A stretch of DNA of 64,000 bases. Source: Caenorhabditis elegans. Its lineage: Eukaryota; Nematoda; Chromadorea; Rhabditida; Rhabditidae. Under the pieces are notes generated by a model. The model was not told the origin of the DNA and did no database searches. It was given only the letters and a program-made list of their open reading frames with translations. Below are positions 5,562-41,894 of this stretch, one piece after another. Each line of letters starts with the position of its first letter. Within the stretch, counting starts at the first letter, position 1. The stretch spans positions 4,154,001-4,218,000 of the forward strand of contig NC_003282.8 of assembly GCF_000002985.6 (NCBI RefSeq). Direction: 5' to 3'. The position numbers were made by a program, and so were the translations under genes.

Positions 5562-7789
5562 AAACCCCTGATTGCCTACCAGCTGACCCGAAGTTAATTT
5601 TATTCGCTTATTCAAATGATTTGAAGGCCAGTGTTGTTTCGGAATCGGCCAGTTCCTTGTTTGCCAACTTCTATGTAACAAAATTTGGAAACGTTCGATT
5701 TGACACTAGCCAATCTGCAGAAATATACTACAGTGATGACTTACAGTAAGTGTTTATACATATGTTAACTCGTTGGAAATTCTTATGGTATCATCATGAC
5801 TTATATATTTAAAAAAAATGCATGGGGACGTTACAATTGTAGTTTGTAGTCTGTGACGTCATACGTTTCAGAGGCACGGTGTTTCAGGCTGTTGAAGGGA
5901 TTATGGGTTAGGGTTAGTAGGGGGATATGGTCAGGAGGTGAAAAATATTTTGGCGGGAAATTTAAATTTTCTGAGAAAAACATTTTGGCGGGAAATTAAA
6001 ATCGTCTGACAATGAGAGAAAAATTTGACGGGAAATTCATCGGTTAGGGGATTTTGTGGGGGTACTGTAGTATTACTTTAGGATTACTGTAGTTTAGGAA
6101 ACATTGAGTTTTTGTTTTTTTGACGTATCTTGAAACTTCTATGTATAATCATTTAGAAAAAATTTAGAAAAGTTCCAGAGTTTTCTAGAAAATCTGGAAA
6201 CTTTTAAAAAATTTCTAGAAAAAATGAGTCAGATACTAAAAATTTCTTGAACGTCCGGAAAACTACATGAAAAAATGTAACTGTACAAAAAGCTTATCAT
6301 TGTACAAATTTTTAAAACAATTTAGCGTACGCCACTCGGAGCGCGCGCTTTGTGTTTCCAAACGGCTGGTAGAAAAATATTTTCATTTTCAGAAATTTTA
6401 TGACAATTCACCATTCTCTCTTTGCGGTTCTGTTGTTGTGATTCTCTCGAAACGAAACCCAAATGAGAATAATATTTCCAATCTAGTAGCCAAAATTCGA
6501 TCGCATCATGGAATGGTTCATGTAATTTCATCAAATACTCCATCAGGTGGATCCCAACCACTCACCCTCTATGACCTCTCATTTAAAACAAATGGACTAG
6601 CCGATTTTCGAAATGATGATCAATTCAACGATGTAAGATTTCAGAGGTCGCTCCTCACTCTTAATTAATTTCAGTCTCAAATTCGTTTTTTTGGGCTATT
6701 TTGGCCTGTAGCCATTTATTCGGTGAATCCTGTAGTGTCCGGAAAAGGCTCCATTGTACTGCCTTCACTGTTCCACACTAAACCCAACGGGACATTCTTT
6801 GCCGGGGTCGACTTTGCAGTAACTGTACAGAACCATGGTACAAATTTTGATATGATTATCATAACTTGTTAATATTACAAATTGAGGTCCCATTGATACA
6901 TTCCAATCATTTTACCTTTCTTGGTACAATGCTTCATCATCTACCAATGGTGGTTTTTATGGATATCCAGGATCCCCATCCAATGAGGTAACGTTTCCTA
7001 CATGTACTCATACGATACCGTTTTTTGAGGTTACTACCTTTGAAAGTAATAACCTCACGATTAGAGACTAAATGATTAAAGGATTAAAGGTCGATCCGTT
7101 TTTCAAGCGTTGTGCACTGATTTTTTTGGTTTTTTGAGACCAAAAAAACCAAAAAATAAATTGCAACACTGATTCAGCAAAAAATTAAACAAATGAGAAC
7201 AAAAAACCTTGTTCAATCGTTCGTGTGTTCAATTTTTAATATTTCATGAAAAATTCCTGTTTTGTCCCGTTTGATATCAAACCGTGAAATTTTTTTTGTT
7301 TTTTGTTTTTTTTAGTTTTTTTTTGTTGGTTTTTTTGAAAATTTCGATTTTTTGTTTCTTGTTTTTTGGTCCAAAGTTCGACCAAAAATTTTTTTGTTTT
7401 CTGGTCGAAGTTTGTTTTTGTAATACCTGGTGGTGATCCTACTGGGCGGTAATTTAAGCCACACCCAAGCTGGGGACTGTGGCCGTTTTATAACTTCAGT
7501 AACTGTTTGATAAGACAATAAATTTCGAGAGCAGGCTCCAGTAATCCTATGCCTCACTAACAGGGAATATACGTTAGCTATTTCAGAAAAATAGCACAAT
7601 TCGAGCAGGCTATGGAAACCTCGATGCTGCTATCTACAACATGAAACTTGAGTACTCATATTCTGACAATACGCCAATCAAACTCCAAATTAGACAATAC
7701 GCTGCGATGTAAGATAATGTTAGTGCTAGTTCATCAGAAAAATAACTTTTTTCAGCGATATTGACTACTGGCCACCATATGCTGACTAA
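5562..7789 (+). pseudogene. Third copy of the tandem family, exon 2 deleted
   Basis: Exons 5562-5745, 6393-6632, 6675-6837, 6887-6987, 7587-7708 and 7756-7789 are clear and keep the family splice sites, ending WPPYAD-stop. The 94-bp exon encoding the NLPDPSLGFGSSS segment is missing. At 5766-5800 the sequence passes from the first intron directly to the tail of that exon, TTAACTCGTTGGAAATTCTT, so the acceptor and most of the exon are gone. Because 94 is not a multiple of three, joining the neighbours shifts the frame. The copy is otherwise closest to 1110-3099, including its large third intron. Intron 6988-7586 holds an additional FUN repeat block. Confidence 0.6.
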
Positions 7790-34672: not shown

Positions 34673-35938
34673 ATGACTATCACTGCTCCACCAAAAGACG
34701 AGATTATCTCAAAGTTTCCGGGCTCTGAGCCACTTCTCAACTTTTACAATGAGCTCTCGGATGCCGAAAAATCGAAGCTTTTCCACCAAATTTCAACTCT
34801 AAACCTTTCGGAAGCTCATTAATGGTTCATTGATTCAACGGATCAACGGGCTCCATCAACTGCGGAAGACCTTAAGCCGGTTCTTGATTCTCAGCATTTT
34901 GTACAAGCTGAATTGCATCAAGTGGTAGAGACTTTTAATATTTAGGTAAAACAATCATTAAAATTACATTATTTTCAGATCCTCGATGATCTCTGGAACA
35001 AGGGAATGGATGCTATTGGACGTGGAGAAGTATGTGCAATTGTGCTCGCCGGTGGACAAGCTACACGTCTTGGTTCAAGTTAACCGAAAGGAACGATTCC
35101 ATTGGGAATTAATGCTTCATTTGGAGATTCTCTTTTGGGAATTCAAGCTGCCAAAATTGCACTTCTTCAGGCTCTCGCTGGAGAACGGGAGCATCAGAAT
35201 CCGGGAAAAATTCACTGGGCAGTTATGACGTCACCTGGAACAGAGGAGGCTACTCGTGAGCATGTGAAGAAACTGGCGGCTCATCATGGATTCGATTTCG
35301 ATGAAAAAATGGCCTTCATTCCGAGATGACAAACTTTTTGGGTGGCAAAGGTTCTTTGGGGGCATAGTATCCAAGGAGACAAAGTATCCAGTAGACAAAC
35401 TGGGGTGTATCTTGGGGGGCATATCTTTGGTGACAACCTTTTTTTCAACTAGTTTTTTATATGTATTTTTCAACTAATTTTTGTTCGTATTTCTCTGGAA
35501 TAAATTTTTTAATGCAATTTTTAATGGATTTTCAGCGTATACGTATAGCTATAGTTCAGCTATAGCTATAGCACTCAATTAACGACAGGTGCAAAGTTCA
35601 CCAAAAACTTATTTATTGGGAAAATGCTGAGAACTGGTTGAACAATAGAACCCGGTAGAAAAGTGAAAACCGGGGAATAGAAACACGTGAATCATGGATG
35701 GCGTTGTGAGACATGGAATGAATTATTGAATTTAAAACAATTGAGTATAACGTGATAAAAAACAATGTAGAAACTCTACAAACAACAAAAACTAGCAATA
35801 AAAACAACAATTGAGTATAACGTGATAAAAAACAATGTAGAAACTCTACAAACAACAAAAACTAAGCAATAAAAACAACAATGAAATTAAAAATGTAACA
35901 AGTAAGAAAAGCTACTAGGTTTTTATAAAAATTTGAGT

Positions 35939-38931
35939 TTATTGAACTCTATCAAACTTTAGATCAACGTATACGAATTCTACTTTGGCTCTCTTACCAC
36001 AGGAAGAATTCGGATTATTTGAAGAAAACTGAATCGAATCTGATTCACTTTCATTTCCAAAACTCTTTGTGATCGTTACTTTGACACTACTTCCGGCTTT
36101 CAGTATTCCAAAATCCGGTTTAATTGTGATGTAACTTCTGTCATATCCAGCTTCAAATTCCACATCGCAGTTATTCGGATTTCTTAAAACAAGGAACTTT
36201 ACGCGAATTGATCCAAAAAAATGTAGTGATTTCTCCGATGGAATCAAAGGCTTCGATACTGAATCTGGTGTCGGAGAGTATGGACGAGTTTGCGTTCTGA
36301 AAATTTTTAATAAGATAAGGAGGATATAAATAATTTGTTTAACCTTTTTCTTCCTGAACTGCGTGAATGTGTGGAAGTGTCAAAAGAAGTCATGCTGGAT
36401 TCGAATAACTCATCATCTTTGGATGTGACCAGCGCTGAATTTTCATTTTCCACGTTGTCGATGTTTGAGTAATCTGATTGGGGCTCCTCGTTTTCATCGT
36501 CAGAATTTTCAGACGTCCTCAATCTTCGACTATCCGTATATTCAGAAATGTCTGATTCGGAATCACCACAGTTGTTGGCAGAATTTGAAGAGTTGTTGAC
36601 CGTAAGCGCAGTGTCGTTTGCATATCTAAAAATAAAAATAGAACCATAAATCCAATTTTAGTATAAATTTGTGGTATATAAAAACGAGAAACGGAAACTA
36701 ACCCATTTGGCAGACGATCATAATTGTCTTTGGAAAATTTTGTGAATTTTTTTTCTTGAATCTTCTGGCTTGTCCTCTGGTCTCCCTCAATCTCTCCGTT
36801 TTCAGAACTGTGAAGGTTGTTAAATTATCCAGAAGAATTTTTAAAAATAAATCCCTGGTGGATTCATCCAACGATAATAGAGCAGCAACGACGTGGGAGC
36901 AAACGTCTGGAACTTTTTTACAAGTCCAGCATTTGAGAAAGTTTTCCTCATGAGAAACTGTGACATAGTCCTTTGTACCGGCTGTTTGGACAAGAAATTC
37001 CGAGTCTGATGGCACTACTCGAAGATTTAGAAGGGACGTGAAGTCGATATCTTTGAAACAAGACTGAATATTCGGTGGAGTTTTCAGAAGTGATGTCACT
37101 GCGTCGATCCCCAATACATTGAGTGCTTTCATTTGATCTTTCAACGACGCTGTATTTAGAGAAGGGTTGAAGTCTTCAAAAATCACAGTCTCATCTTCAC
37201 CTGTGATTACAGCATTAACCATTGATCTCAATTCGTCTGAAAGGAAACGTTCATAAAGTTGAAAAGCTGAAATATAATAATTACCATCAATAAACTGAAT
37301 CAATTTCAGGACAGCTGTGTATCCGCACTCTGGTTTTGTAATTGACAGCTTGATGGTACCATTCACACACTCGATCCTGTTGGTAGTCACTCTATGGACA
37401 AGCATTCCACTTAGCAGCTTTGCTTTCAAAGAGTTTGATTCAAACAAGCTCTCTATTCGCTCACGAATCCAATTTTTCAGTTTAATTCCCAAGTGAGCAC
37501 ATTCCAATCTTCGTTTCATGTCGTTGATATTCAACGCCCCGAATACCCCTCTTTTAATATCATTATTGCCATTTTTATTTCCAAAAATCTCCCGAATTTC
37601 ATCTTGTGTTACTTTCGTGCCGGCGTTTTCTTCAAGATTGTTTCGTCGATGAATATCACATCGAAGGAAAATGGTGTCACTAAAATGGATGCCTTTTTTC
37701 ATAGCGGAAAAAGCTGCTTCTCCATCAGTGATCATAGCTGAATTTTTTTGATTTTTTTCGGGTCAAGTTCCTGAAGAATCTCGTTCAGACGGCCAGAAAA
37801 ATCTTCGAAATGACTCTTGTGTTTGGACGAATGGAACATAAATCCCAAAACTACATGGCGCAGTTTCGATGGAGATGACTTTGTATGTTGACGCGTTCTG
37901 AAAACTTCAATTGGTGAATATGGAAAATAAAAATAATCACTGACCGGAACACTGGAATAAATCCAGTAGTGACAGAGATGTATCCGTTGGAAAGACCGAA
38001 AGTTGTATCGAGTTCGATGATAGACGCCACTCGAGTGTCAATACCTCCGCAGGTATACACCTTACAATCCGCCAAGTGTTTGTTTAGATCCGCAGTTCTC
38101 CAGTTTTCAATTCCATCCATACGATTTCTATATGTCGTAATTTCCGTGTAAGTTGGGCACGATTTCAGGAATAGTCCAAGCATCGATTTATTGAAATAAA
38201 TAAACCTGATTGAGTTGCGATGCGATGAGTGATATGCATGAGAAAACATTCGAGAGAGATCGCATAGATCGGCGGGATTTGTGACAGGTCTCGGTCCTCT
38301 ATTAAGTTTCACAGTTGTCAAAACGTTACGTTGCTGGTCTTTGATTTGACGCTTCGAGTACTTTCCACCGAGCATTTGATATACCATCAACACTGTGCGA
38401 CCCTCCAACATCTTCCTGATCATCAATGCCTCTTCCTTCGACAATTTTTTTCTTGCAACTTTCAAAGAAGTGTAGTCGATAACATCGTGACTGGACCCCA
38501 AGAATAAAATCCAGCAGAGCTTTGTTGCTTCTTCAATAGCCATGTACTTTTTGAAAAGATTGGTGGCAGGAGGTGGCGAACTACAGTTGATTCTTCTAAA
38601 AGTCCTTCCATCAACGCTGATGGTGTTTTTCCGCGGTTTCATTTCAGATCCCAGCGAATCTTTCTTTTTCGACCATCGGATACCGTCAGAATTGATAACC
38701 TCATCTTCAGTTTTTTCTCCGATGTTGTAACACGCAGATAATTGCAGAAAACTATCGAATTGTGGCGGTGTGTAGTCTTCAATGTGACAGATTACGTTGT
38801 ACCTGCAAAAAAAAAAGACGTTAAATTTATTAAAGACGAGAAATTGTATACTTTGTGTTGATCAAGGATCGAATCACATTTTCAGTAAACAAGGACACAT
38901 CCCGTTCGGTGAACTCCTGCCACGAAAACAT
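35939..38931 (-). pseudogene. MULE transposase with SWIM zinc finger and C-terminal MSP-like domain, frameshifted
   Basis: Minus-strand exons are 38852-38931 (ATG at 38931), 37945-38802, 36703-37897, 36344-36625 and 35939-36296. In order: an N-terminal FLYWCH/MULE-like region; IIELDTTFGLSNGYISVTTG (first catalytic Asp); MITDGEAAF and FLRCDIHRRNNLEE (second Asp and the CxxH); TTNRIECVNGTIK (likely catalytic Glu); a SWIM finger CWTCKKVPDVCSHVV; an acidic Ser/Asp/Glu linker; and a final exon with LVLRNPNNCDVEFEAGYD and DFGILKAGSSVKVTIT, the major sperm protein fold. Two frame breaks are needed: at about 37745 before MITDG and between about 36830 and 36703, both beside A runs. So the copy is probably dead, or the breaks are homopolymer errors. 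Confidence 0.8.
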
Positions 38932-39460
38932 GCGAATATACCTGAAAATTAATTTTTTAAAAAGAAAATCACAAGAACAAATACAAAGTAATAAAAAACT
39001 GGAAAAATGAGACGAACTCCTTTAAATTTCAAACATATAGCTAAATCCTAAAAAAAAAGATGAAAAAACTCGAATTTTGAACGAAAAATGGAGATGAGGT
39101 GTTAAAATTGATCGGAAAATTAAATATTTAAATTTTATAAAAATTATTATGCAAAATCTAAATGAAAATTGAGAAAAAACGGAGAAAATTGTGTAAAATC
39201 AAAATGAAAAAGAAATAGGTGGATGTCGTCAATCGTGGCGCCTGCACAGTTGTCGTCAAGTATGGTGTTTGCACCGATTCGCGCAACTTATGTTGTGGCG
39301 CATTGTCTTTTTCGCATCATTTCCCTTGTTTTCCACCGAATTTGTATATTTTTTTGTTCACTTTTTGTGTAAAATTATTTCTAAAAACATTTAAAAGAAA
39401 AAGAAACCGTTTTCATTTTGGAAATTTCGATAAAAGCTCCGTTTTCGCCCATTTTTACCT

Positions 39461-39508
39461 TGCCCCCGGTGAACCTTTGTCACCCAAAAGTTTGTCGCCT
39501 CGGAGCAT
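39461..39508. repeat. Internal TIR-like segment inside the MULE
   Basis: TTGCCCCCGGTGAACCTTTG, then TCACCCAAAAGTTTGTC and CCTCGG, repeats in diverged form the outer right TIR at 40350-40390 (GCCCCCAAAGAACCTTTGCC...TCATCTCGG). It lies 0.9 kb inside the element, as if an older end is enclosed. Confidence 0.6.
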
Positions 39509-41894
39509 TTGAAGAAAAAATTCTAAATTTCTAAATTTTTCGATCAGTTATCCCTTTATACTAATATTCCACTACTATTCTATATTCCTTTTCGTATCCC
39601 GAAGTATTCTGCAGATGAGTGAGTTTAAAAAATGTTTTTAACAGGTGAGATTTCAAAGTTCCGCATTTCCACCAGGGTCTACTGTTGGAATTGTCCCTAT
39701 TCAAACTAGAGACAATTTTTCAGTACGTTTTTGGTGGTGGCAGGAATCTTCTATTTTTTAGATGTGCATTTTCGATTAACAAGGAGAAAAACTGTCATGG
39801 GCATAAAAATCAATGTGTTTTTACAGGAGTATAGCAACTTCACAGAACGGTTGGATCATGTCGATGATTTTCGCCGAAAGAACATGAAATTTTTTATAAA
39901 TATCTGTCTTAAAACAGATGTATCTTTTTGGAGAGTCGAGGAACCAAAAAGTTATCAACTTTAACATTGTCAAGCTCAAAACAAAGAACATTTTAATAGT
40001 TGTAAATATATTTTCATCATCATCGAGAACTGAAATGTAGTGAGATGTAAATGTAGTGAGATGTAGTACCAATGAGGTGATAAGAAGAGTCGTATGCTAT
40101 TCCAAGTTAGTTGGACGTTTTACAGCTTTTCCCAAAAGACCATCGTTCATACATTCAATTGTGAGGGAATTATAACCGATAATCGATTGAAAATTGCATT
40201 AAAAAAATTATTCCAAAAAAATGTGAACAAAAATTAGTTGAAAAATACATATAAAAATCTAGTTGAAAAAAAGGTTGTCACCAAAGATATGCCCCCCAAG
40301 ATACACCCCAGTTCGTCTACTGGATACTTTGTCTCCTTGGATACTATGCCCCCAAAGAACCTTTGCCACCCAAAAAGTTTGTCATCTCGGAATGAAGGCC
40401 TGAAAAAATTACTATTTTCTCACAAGATGAAATTGCTGCATACGATGAGCAGGGAAACTTCCTTCTCGGAACTAAAGGATCTGTTGTTGCTGCTCCAAGT
40501 ATGAGCTTTTACGCAATTCGTGTACTCCTCGAGGAAAACTATTTTTACGAATTTTTCAGCTATAATTCTGACTTTTTGATGATTTTTTAATCTTCAAAAC
40601 GAAAAATTATATGACATTTAAAGTATTTTCGGTGTCAATATTGAAAGCAGTATTAATTGCATGGATTTTCCCCCAAAACACACAAAAAATATATATTAGT
40701 TGGCGATTTGAATTTAAAAAATATCTAAAATTAAGTATTTTATCCGAATACTTAAAAATTTCGTACAAAAAAATAATTATTTTTTCTCGGGGAGTACACG
40801 AGCTGCGTAAATCGACACAAAAATTTAAAAAATGCGTTTTTCAACGAAAAAAAAAATCGAATTTTCAATATTTTAAAGATAATGTTTTCTCATCAAACTC
40901 AACTTTTTTTAGAACATAAAATCTAGACTTTTTTTCTGGATTTCAAAAAAAATATAAAATTATCGATTTTCTCACAAAAAACCGAAAAATCAGATTTTTT
41001 TTCAGACGGCAACGGAGGTCTCTACTCTGCCATCTCTGCTCATTTGCCACGTCTTCGCGCGAAAGGAATCAAATATTTCCATGTGTATTGTGTGGACAAC
41101 ATTCTGTGCAAAGTTGCCGACCCTCATTTCATCGGATTCGCCATTTCAAACGAAGCTGACGTTGCAACCAAGTGTGTTCCGAAGCAAAAAGGAGAACTCG
41201 TCGGATCAGTTTTTCTTGATAGAGGACTACCACGTGTCGTTGAATATTCGGAGCTTGGAGCCGAGTTGGCTGAACAAAAGACACCGGATGGAAAATATTT
41301 GTTTGGTGCAGGATCTATTGCAAATCACTTTTTCACGATGAATTTCATGGATAGGTTTGTAATTTTTAATTTGGAGAAAAAGCTTAATTTTAAAATAAAT
41401 ACAGAGTCTGCTCTCCATCATCTCGTCTTCCATATCATCGTGCTCACAAGAAGATTTCCTATGTGAATGAGCAAGGGACCATTGTCAAACCGGAAAATCC
41501 AAATGGGATCAAGCTGGAGCAGTTTATTTTCGACGTCTTCGAGCTCTCGAAGCGATTTTTCATTTGGGAGGTGGCGAGGAACGAAGAGTTTTCTCCATTG
41601 AAAAATGCTCAATCTGTTGGAACTGATTGTTTGAGCACTTGTCAGAGAGATTTGTCCAGTGAGTAGATTTTTCTGTGAATTCAGAATTAAAATTGATTTA
41701 AAAACTGATTTTCAGATGTGAACAAGTTGTGGCTGGAACGTGTTCAAGCGAAAGTGACTGCTACTGAAAAGCCGATCTACTTGAAGACAATCGTCTCCTA
41801 CAACGGAGAGAGTCTTCAAGAACTCCGTCATCGTGAAATTTCTGATAGTGCCTTGGAATCCGATCATTCGATTAACAAATTCTTTGTTGTCTAG

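Follow-up and report, generated by a model that had tools for sequence, protein, structure and literature searches.

A diverged MSP/VAP-like domain as a probable old C-terminal part of a family of Mutator-like transposase genes in Caenorhabditis elegans

The window analysed here is a stretch of 64,000 nucleotides of the Caenorhabditis elegans genome (RefSeq assembly GCF_000002985.6, contig NC_003282.8, positions 4,154,001 to 4,218,000; C4:4154001-4218000 in the contig numbering used below) and carries a transposon whose transposase gene, on the minus strand, ends in an exon at window positions 35939 to 36296. Judged from sequence comparisons, this exon is quite probably a diverged domain of the MSP/VAP type, of immunoglobulin (Ig)-like kind, and a genuine, old C-terminal module of a family of Mutator-like transposase genes. 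The initial annotation of the window had taken the last exon for an MSP-like domain belonging to such a gene, and this is upheld by the recurrence of the same layout, with the same intron phase, in four of the six transposase lineages examined. Since three distantly related lineages have this arrangement, the tail is probably an old, retained part of the element rather than a chance neighbour. Its place, frame and intron persist though the transposase cores of two of these lineages are only 36% (C5:18.8) and 27% (C5:14.9) identical to that of the window family, which argues for retention of the tail during the active life of the elements.

The genome (100,286,401 bases in 7 contigs) was searched for other copies with a transposase-MSP layout, and three further diverged lineages were recovered, all on contig C5. 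The lineages with downstream DNA examined are the window family, C5:18.8, C5:14.9, C5:17.6, C6 and C4:4.73, the first four of which bear the tail. The relative at C5:18.8166 Mb was found by a transposase search and is followed on its own strand, some 1.1 kb downstream, by a match to the MSP family PF00635, where the chance expectation of a PF00635 place per 2-kb same-strand stretch is 0.0012 (from 125 such places in the genome). Its element (L049:911-5889) has inverted repeats of 92 nt (84%) and a 9-bp target duplication, TGCGCCATT, and the tail lying between these repeats matches PF00635 at E=1.2e-9 and 38.4 bits, above the curated cut-off of 25.9, as the only one of the three tails in related elements to reach it. 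In the lineage at C5:14.904 Mb, a copy of which lies at ~8.577 Mb, the linker ends in GSRRSSRSR and is followed by a phase-2 intron and a tail that falls just under the cut-off (E=1.4e-5, 25.4 bits). The lineage at C5:17.634 Mb has copies at C1:13.93 Mb (99.5%) and C4:2.91 Mb (99.8%, both over the compared part); here the linker ends in DSRRSARNR, a phase-2 intron and the tail again follow, and the tail matches a profile of the other three at E=2.9e-9. The search that yielded further relatives also gave a match of E=0.63 at C4:3.31 Mb.

Two of these families include rearranged copies. At C5:14045200-14048800, two outward-facing copies of the MSP-tail end of C5:18.8 (L075 and L076), identical over the 369-nt tail, make up a foldback-like derivative, an inverted pair with an MSP exon on both sides. 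The copy of the C5:14.9 family at C5:8.579 Mb (L074) has an internal partial duplication in the linker/tail region.

The intron between linker and tail is 43-47 nt long, lies in phase 2 and splits an Arg codon in all four tail-bearing lineages. In the C6 lineage (227.9 kb, with a further copy at 237.3 kb), a linker is followed at the same place by a phase-2 intron that splits an Ile codon and then by a short Ser/Pro and acidic end without the domain, the gene passing from the intron straight to NTRSQKRFSPSP...DSDSE. C5:18.8 has a second phase-2 intron after the domain exon and then a last exon reading RSQESP...DSDSD. Exon shuffling would predict just such a symmetric 2-2 exon as that of C5:18.8, lying in an intron that is empty in C6, and host capture by this route appears likely; a loss of the domain from C6 would look alike, and is equally possible as its never having been gained there. 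In C5:17.6, the reading is open from the exon after the zinc-like motif through the linker to the tail, across two phase-2 introns, the first of which was picked as canonical among five open donor/acceptor combinations.

Homology among the tails was assessed by leave-one-out comparison, each tail being scored, along with 2,000 shuffles and the open reading frames (ORFs) of the window (2,529 sequences in all), by a profile built from the remaining three. The window tail ranked first of the 2,529 (20.0 bits, E=6.9e-5), with the best true control, a shuffle, at 12.4 bits. The other three tails obtained E-values of 4.5e-8, 2.3e-8 and 3.3e-8 and ranked directly behind the window's own ORF, which is itself part of their profile. 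The best of the 8,000 shuffles over the four runs had E=0.00082. PF00635 matched all four tails at E<=1, more than did any other Pfam family. The homology of the four tails may be taken as shown, like the element boundaries, the target duplications, the gene order, the intron phases and the match of one tail above the MSP cut-off.

A number of results weigh against the reading of the tail as an old MSP/VAP-type module, and are given here together with the alternatives on which they bear. The C6 lineage has no MSP domain, either by the tail profile over ~230 nt past the stop or by PF00635 at E<=0.001, and the lineage at C4:4.732 Mb has no tail within 2 kb downstream by the tail profile. Taken alone, the C5:17.6 tail is a weak match to PF00635 (E=0.026, 14.8 bits). 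A profile search of the window exon, which had been expected to return MSP, does so below threshold, at E=0.0026 in the whole Pfam library and 18.0 bits where the cut-off is 25.9, and the exon is missing among the 125 genome-wide PF00635 matches at E<=0.001. It obtains 10.6 bits with a model of six host MSPs, which gives at most 9.9 bits to any of 2,000 shuffles and 7.5 to the best other ORF (527 window ORFs of >=50 aa; orf299, at 10.1 bits, is a longer frame of the same exon and was not counted as a control). Compared one to one, the window and C5:18.8 tails are 26% identical (E=4e-4), and when the 9.9-kb C5:18.8 locus is searched by tblastn with the window tail, the E-value (0.016) equals that of a match elsewhere in the locus (0.016). 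A phmmer search of the window tail against the Protein Data Bank (PDB) returned only two teneurin-like chains, by repeat match. Single-sequence AlphaFold models of the tail are mostly beta, with pLDDT values of 50.7 and 54.6, too poor to use, and the best Foldseek match obtained with these low-pLDDT models has E=0.46. On its own, the window exon is thus suggestive of an MSP domain.

The strongest competitor would place the domain among the Ig domains of the ASH/HYDIN/Cep192-like kind, outside the MSP/VAP family proper, an unlikely reading for which the following speaks. Seven Pfam families match the window exon at E<=10, each below its cut-off, and BACON_2 (0.001) and Cep192_D6 (0.0023) score as well as MSP (0.0026); the fourth CFAP65 domain follows at 0.0029, and the remaining three are Cep192_D3, HYDIN/CFAP65-like and the seventh CFAP65 domain. 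These families are Ig-like by name except BACON and Cep192, which we take to be Ig-like as well. No such Ig-like family was found in Pfam with five shuffled tails (four from the window exon and one from the C5:18.8 tail), three of which gave empty output, one SPOC at 0.054 and one Lipocalin_4 at 0.14 with ABC_AB at 0.27. With the four-tail profile, 26 PDB sequences match at E<=10, and the lowest E-values (to 3.1e-10) belong to long HYDIN, FAP47 and CFAP65 chains, lower than those of VAP. The scores of these long chains are, however, spread over 8 and 12 repeats of at most 15.1 bits each (in the two alignments shown), whereas the single domain of VAP-A (2rr3) reaches 30.7 bits at E=2.2e-6; it leads the single-domain matches, and the VAP-A and VAP-B MSP domains come after the long chains. 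Moreover, PF00635 is the only Pfam family that matches all four tails and the only one above its cut-off in any of them. Because the long-chain scores are divided among repeats and VAP is the best of the single-domain structures, the tail is described here as MSP/VAP-like within a wider Ig-like group.

As in the VAP/MSP proteins (PF00635; 2rr3, 1z9l, 1row, 1msp), the profile match lies around a YxxxPxxGxhxxxS stretch; unlike them, the tail belongs to a transposase gene, is very diverged (17-23% identity between VAP/MSP proteins and the window tail) and has no known sperm or membrane context. A link with sperm or the germline had been suggested, but VAP-A outscores the MSP-type nematode chain 1row (3.6e-4) and the sperm MSP 1msp (0.014) with the four-tail profile, and the comparisons lend the link no support.

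Passive uptake of a piece of a host gene, that is, transduplication without function for the element, has a C. elegans precedent in Turmoil-1 (PMC2572040, in the text available), and the available text of PMC6446971 says that Mutator-like elements tend to pick up such fragments. The codon changes between the C5:18.8 tail and its copies at C5:14.05 Mb, 10 non-synonymous and 4 synonymous (dN 0.035, dS 0.056), would also suit it, and they give no clear sign of purifying selection among these copies, which is a further point against a retained module. This explanation is nonetheless improbable, given that no close host donor was found in the genome (the best non-element match of the window tail has E=0.023 at 33% identity, that of the C5:18.8 tail E=0.021 at 27%) and that the tail occupies the same place, on the same strand and with the same intron phase, in four diverged lineages, outside the inverted repeats. 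Turmoil-1 is likewise a C. elegans DNA transposon with host-derived coding sequence, but according to the available text of PMC2572040 it belongs to the Harbinger superfamily, has its RRM and cpg-3 fragments in the inverted repeats, and carries an RRM stated not to be under purifying selection.

The suggestion that a host domain had been captured is a reasonable one: the phase 2-2 exon in one lineage and the C6 intron without the domain speak for it, while no near donor turned up and C6 could equally well have lost the domain. The non-element match of the window tail at E=0.023 falls in a small gene at C5:13966339-13966566 (L011, L013), which has a sub-threshold MSP-like domain (PF00635 0.0011, 19.3 bits) that is 33% identical to the window tail. 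It was considered as a fifth tail and rejected, since there is no transposase nearby (the best match to the transposase cores, E=0.13, does not rise above chance) and the sequence around it holds no long inverted repeats; for these reasons it looks like a host gene, and it is possibly the nearest host relative.

That the tail exon might instead be a separate small gene within the element, unspliced to the transposase, has to be judged from the structure of the window gene. The exon, with its TAA stop at 35941-35939 and without difference in the C3 copy described below, and the 47-nt phase-2 intron before it (36297..36343, minus strand, Arg codon split AG|A) lie exactly where the initial annotation had placed them, and the peptide motifs it quoted are present in the exon translation. 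Upstream, all on the minus strand, are a Ser/Asp/Glu-rich linker exon (36344..36625) ending in ...HSRSSGRK(R), an intron of 77 nt (36626..36702), and the 3' half of the transposase (36703..37897, limits by eye) with the second catalytic Asp (ITDGE), CxxH, the Glu (TTNRIECVN) and a zinc-like CxxC...CxH motif. A frame break occurs in this 3' half near 37.74 kb, and an additional short intron inside it is possible. The exon with the first catalytic Asp (IIELDTTFGLSN) extends over 37945..38802 (limits by eye). The three parts had been described as joined in phase, which holds from linker to tail; from transposase to linker, the only donor tried gives phase 1 and the linker needs phase 2, an out-of-frame join in the window copy that favours a separate gene. 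The frame break of the window copy stands ahead of the second catalytic Asp, between the first and second catalytic residues; the C3 copy reads through there, yet it carries an in-frame stop along with further changes of frame. Frames are thus broken in both copies of the window family, again to the detriment of the fusion, and neither copy encodes the whole fusion as it stands. Set against this are the order, strand, short introns and phase common to the tail-bearing lineages and the reading that is open across linker and tail in C5:17.6, with which a separate gene becomes somewhat less probable still than passive capture. A chance motif match in an exon unrelated to MSP, for which the sub-threshold score of the window exon, its absence from the genome-wide PF00635 list and the tblastn result no better than chance could be cited, is very improbable in view of the first rank among 2,529 sequences and of a position and intron phase shared with a tail that passes the PF00635 cut-off.

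Under the preferred reading of the tail as an old MSP/VAP-type module, the domain would have been captured from the host and have joined a transposon ancestral to several of today's lineages, probably as a phase 2-2 exon lodged in the phase-2 intron after the linker, and would have stayed in place as the transposase cores diverged; transposase, linker and tail would be translated as one protein. The MSP domains of VAP proteins dock on FFAT motifs. The tail may accordingly be imagined as a protein-protein interaction module, acting in transposase assembly or binding to a host protein by way of a short peptide motif, and such an interaction would aid the mobility of the element itself. That this functional step is right in kind is offered only as a tentative suggestion. 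Tentative to the same degree is the fuller scenario of a single phase 2-2 insertion in an ancestral nematode Mutator-like transposon, after which the domain would have gone on working within the transposase of several lineages, either to tether the transposition machinery to a host partner by VAP-like peptide docking or to bring about its assembly.

The label Mutator-like rests on the long inverted repeats, the 9-bp target duplications (found in all three insertions examined: window, C3 and C5:18.8) and a D..D..CxxH..E pattern. The two Asp residues, CxxH and Glu are conserved in the alignments, and in the two closest lineages the Glu is embedded in TTNxIExxN. The designation as a Mutator-like element (MULE) in the initial annotation agrees with these features but not with the profile evidence, as an exon-by-exon search of the genome with PF10551 (MULE) gives nothing at E<=1, nor does any of the five joined transposase cores match it. 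Its SWIM assignment has to be given up: the motif, found in the window, C6 and C5:17.6 copies, is CxxC-x(n)-CxH and has no CxC form, and the window copy matches no SWIM family. A five-lineage transposase profile had no match in the PDB, and of the 159 pattern matches obtained on viral contigs with the transposase alignment, none was confirmed. Rehavkus elements have 9-bp duplications and repeats of 26-400 bp according to the available text of PMC6446971. The present elements resemble MULEs (including Phantom) and Rehavkus alike in their long inverted repeats, 9-bp duplications, D..D..E residues with CxxH between the last two acidic ones, zinc-like motif after the core, and short derivatives; they differ from MULEs in having no Pfam MULE match, a CxxC...CxH zinc motif and a C-terminal MSP-like domain. 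By structure the element would be Mutator-like, a Rehavkus-like alternative remains, and the superfamily is not proven. Minisatellite-like units (GGGGCAACA...) occur in the inverted repeats of C5:18.8 (L049:911-1090 and 5798-5889), a trait also of foldback or Rehavkus-type elements.

Host-type domains on transposons are already known. The available text of PMC6446971 names PMD, SET, Ovarian Tumour Gene, FAR1, FLYWCH, PHD and other extra motifs in MULE groups, an MSP-like domain not being among those it names, and its main text, so far as available, does not contain 'nematod', 'Caenorhabditis' or 'sperm'. The MULEs with SET, Ovarian Tumour Gene or PMD described there likewise have a host-type domain in or beside the transposase; the present case differs in that the domain is of an MSP/VAP-like family, the host is a nematode, and the domain forms a last exon with a common intron phase. 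Tm1 of Meloidogyne (Mutator/Foldback; PMC3169594) is similar as a nematode Mutator-like element with mostly 9-bp duplications and many short derivatives, but the available text gives Tm1-A a 496-aa protein that has FLYWCH and a MULE domain detectable with Pfam, and the word 'sperm' is absent from that text. The initial annotation knew of no described case, and no account of an MSP/VAP-like module on a transposase was found in the literature searched; the elements themselves may well be named in Repbase or WormBase. If the reading is correct, it would be an instance of domain capture through exon shuffling in the direction from host to transposon, and the laboratory-model host would allow a direct test of whether a transposon gains from such a captured interaction domain in its host. 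Mutator was the sole DNA transposon class to differ in abundance between selfing and outcrossing Caenorhabditis (PMC10015627, in the text available), which gives the parts of Mutator elements a wider interest.

The whole transposon in the window is 5,090 bp long (35311..40400, gene on the minus strand). The terminal inverted repeat on the MSP-exon side (35311..35533) is 223 nt long and 96% complementary to its partner on the transposase 5' side (40178..40400), and the flanking 9-bp target-site duplications (35302..35310 on the left, 40401..40409 on the right) are a perfect pair, both TGAAAAAAT. A second near-complete copy, on C3, is 5,081 bp long and 98.9% identical over 5,101 columns, with its own 9-bp target duplication, ATCACCTTT, which differs from that of the window copy. 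Among the at least 107 genome DNA matches listed for the window element (40 of 69 candidates scored), only the window and C3 copies span its full length, and the remainder are end pieces. Of the 48 listed transposase-side end pieces of the family, 40 fall into 20 pairs in inverted orientation, the two pieces of each lying within 5 kb of one another, giving 20 short derivatives with such a piece on both flanks. A search of the genome with the tail exon gave two full matches (the window and C3 copies) and one weak match, and the exon was not found in these 20 derivatives.

A 45-nt fragment (39461-39504) within the element, some 0.9 kb short of the right end, resembles the terminal repeat (84%). 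The non-coding 5' stretches at window positions ~39970-40030 and L049:1230-1290 are alike by eye (..GTTTTGAGCTTGAC..), and the stretch with GTTTTGAGCTTGAC, common to both diverged elements, is possibly a shared promoter or binding region. The transposon interrupts a UDPGP-family gene at ~34675-41893 (exon 40996-41358: PF01704, E=1.5e-11), which looks like a pseudogene by virtue of apparent further in-frame stops, seen by eye, in its first exons. The interrupted gene is presumably UDP-GlcNAc pyrophosphorylase-like, and we take its name to be K06B9.2. In the available text of PMC5603424, K06B9.2 is placed under the hexosamine pathway.

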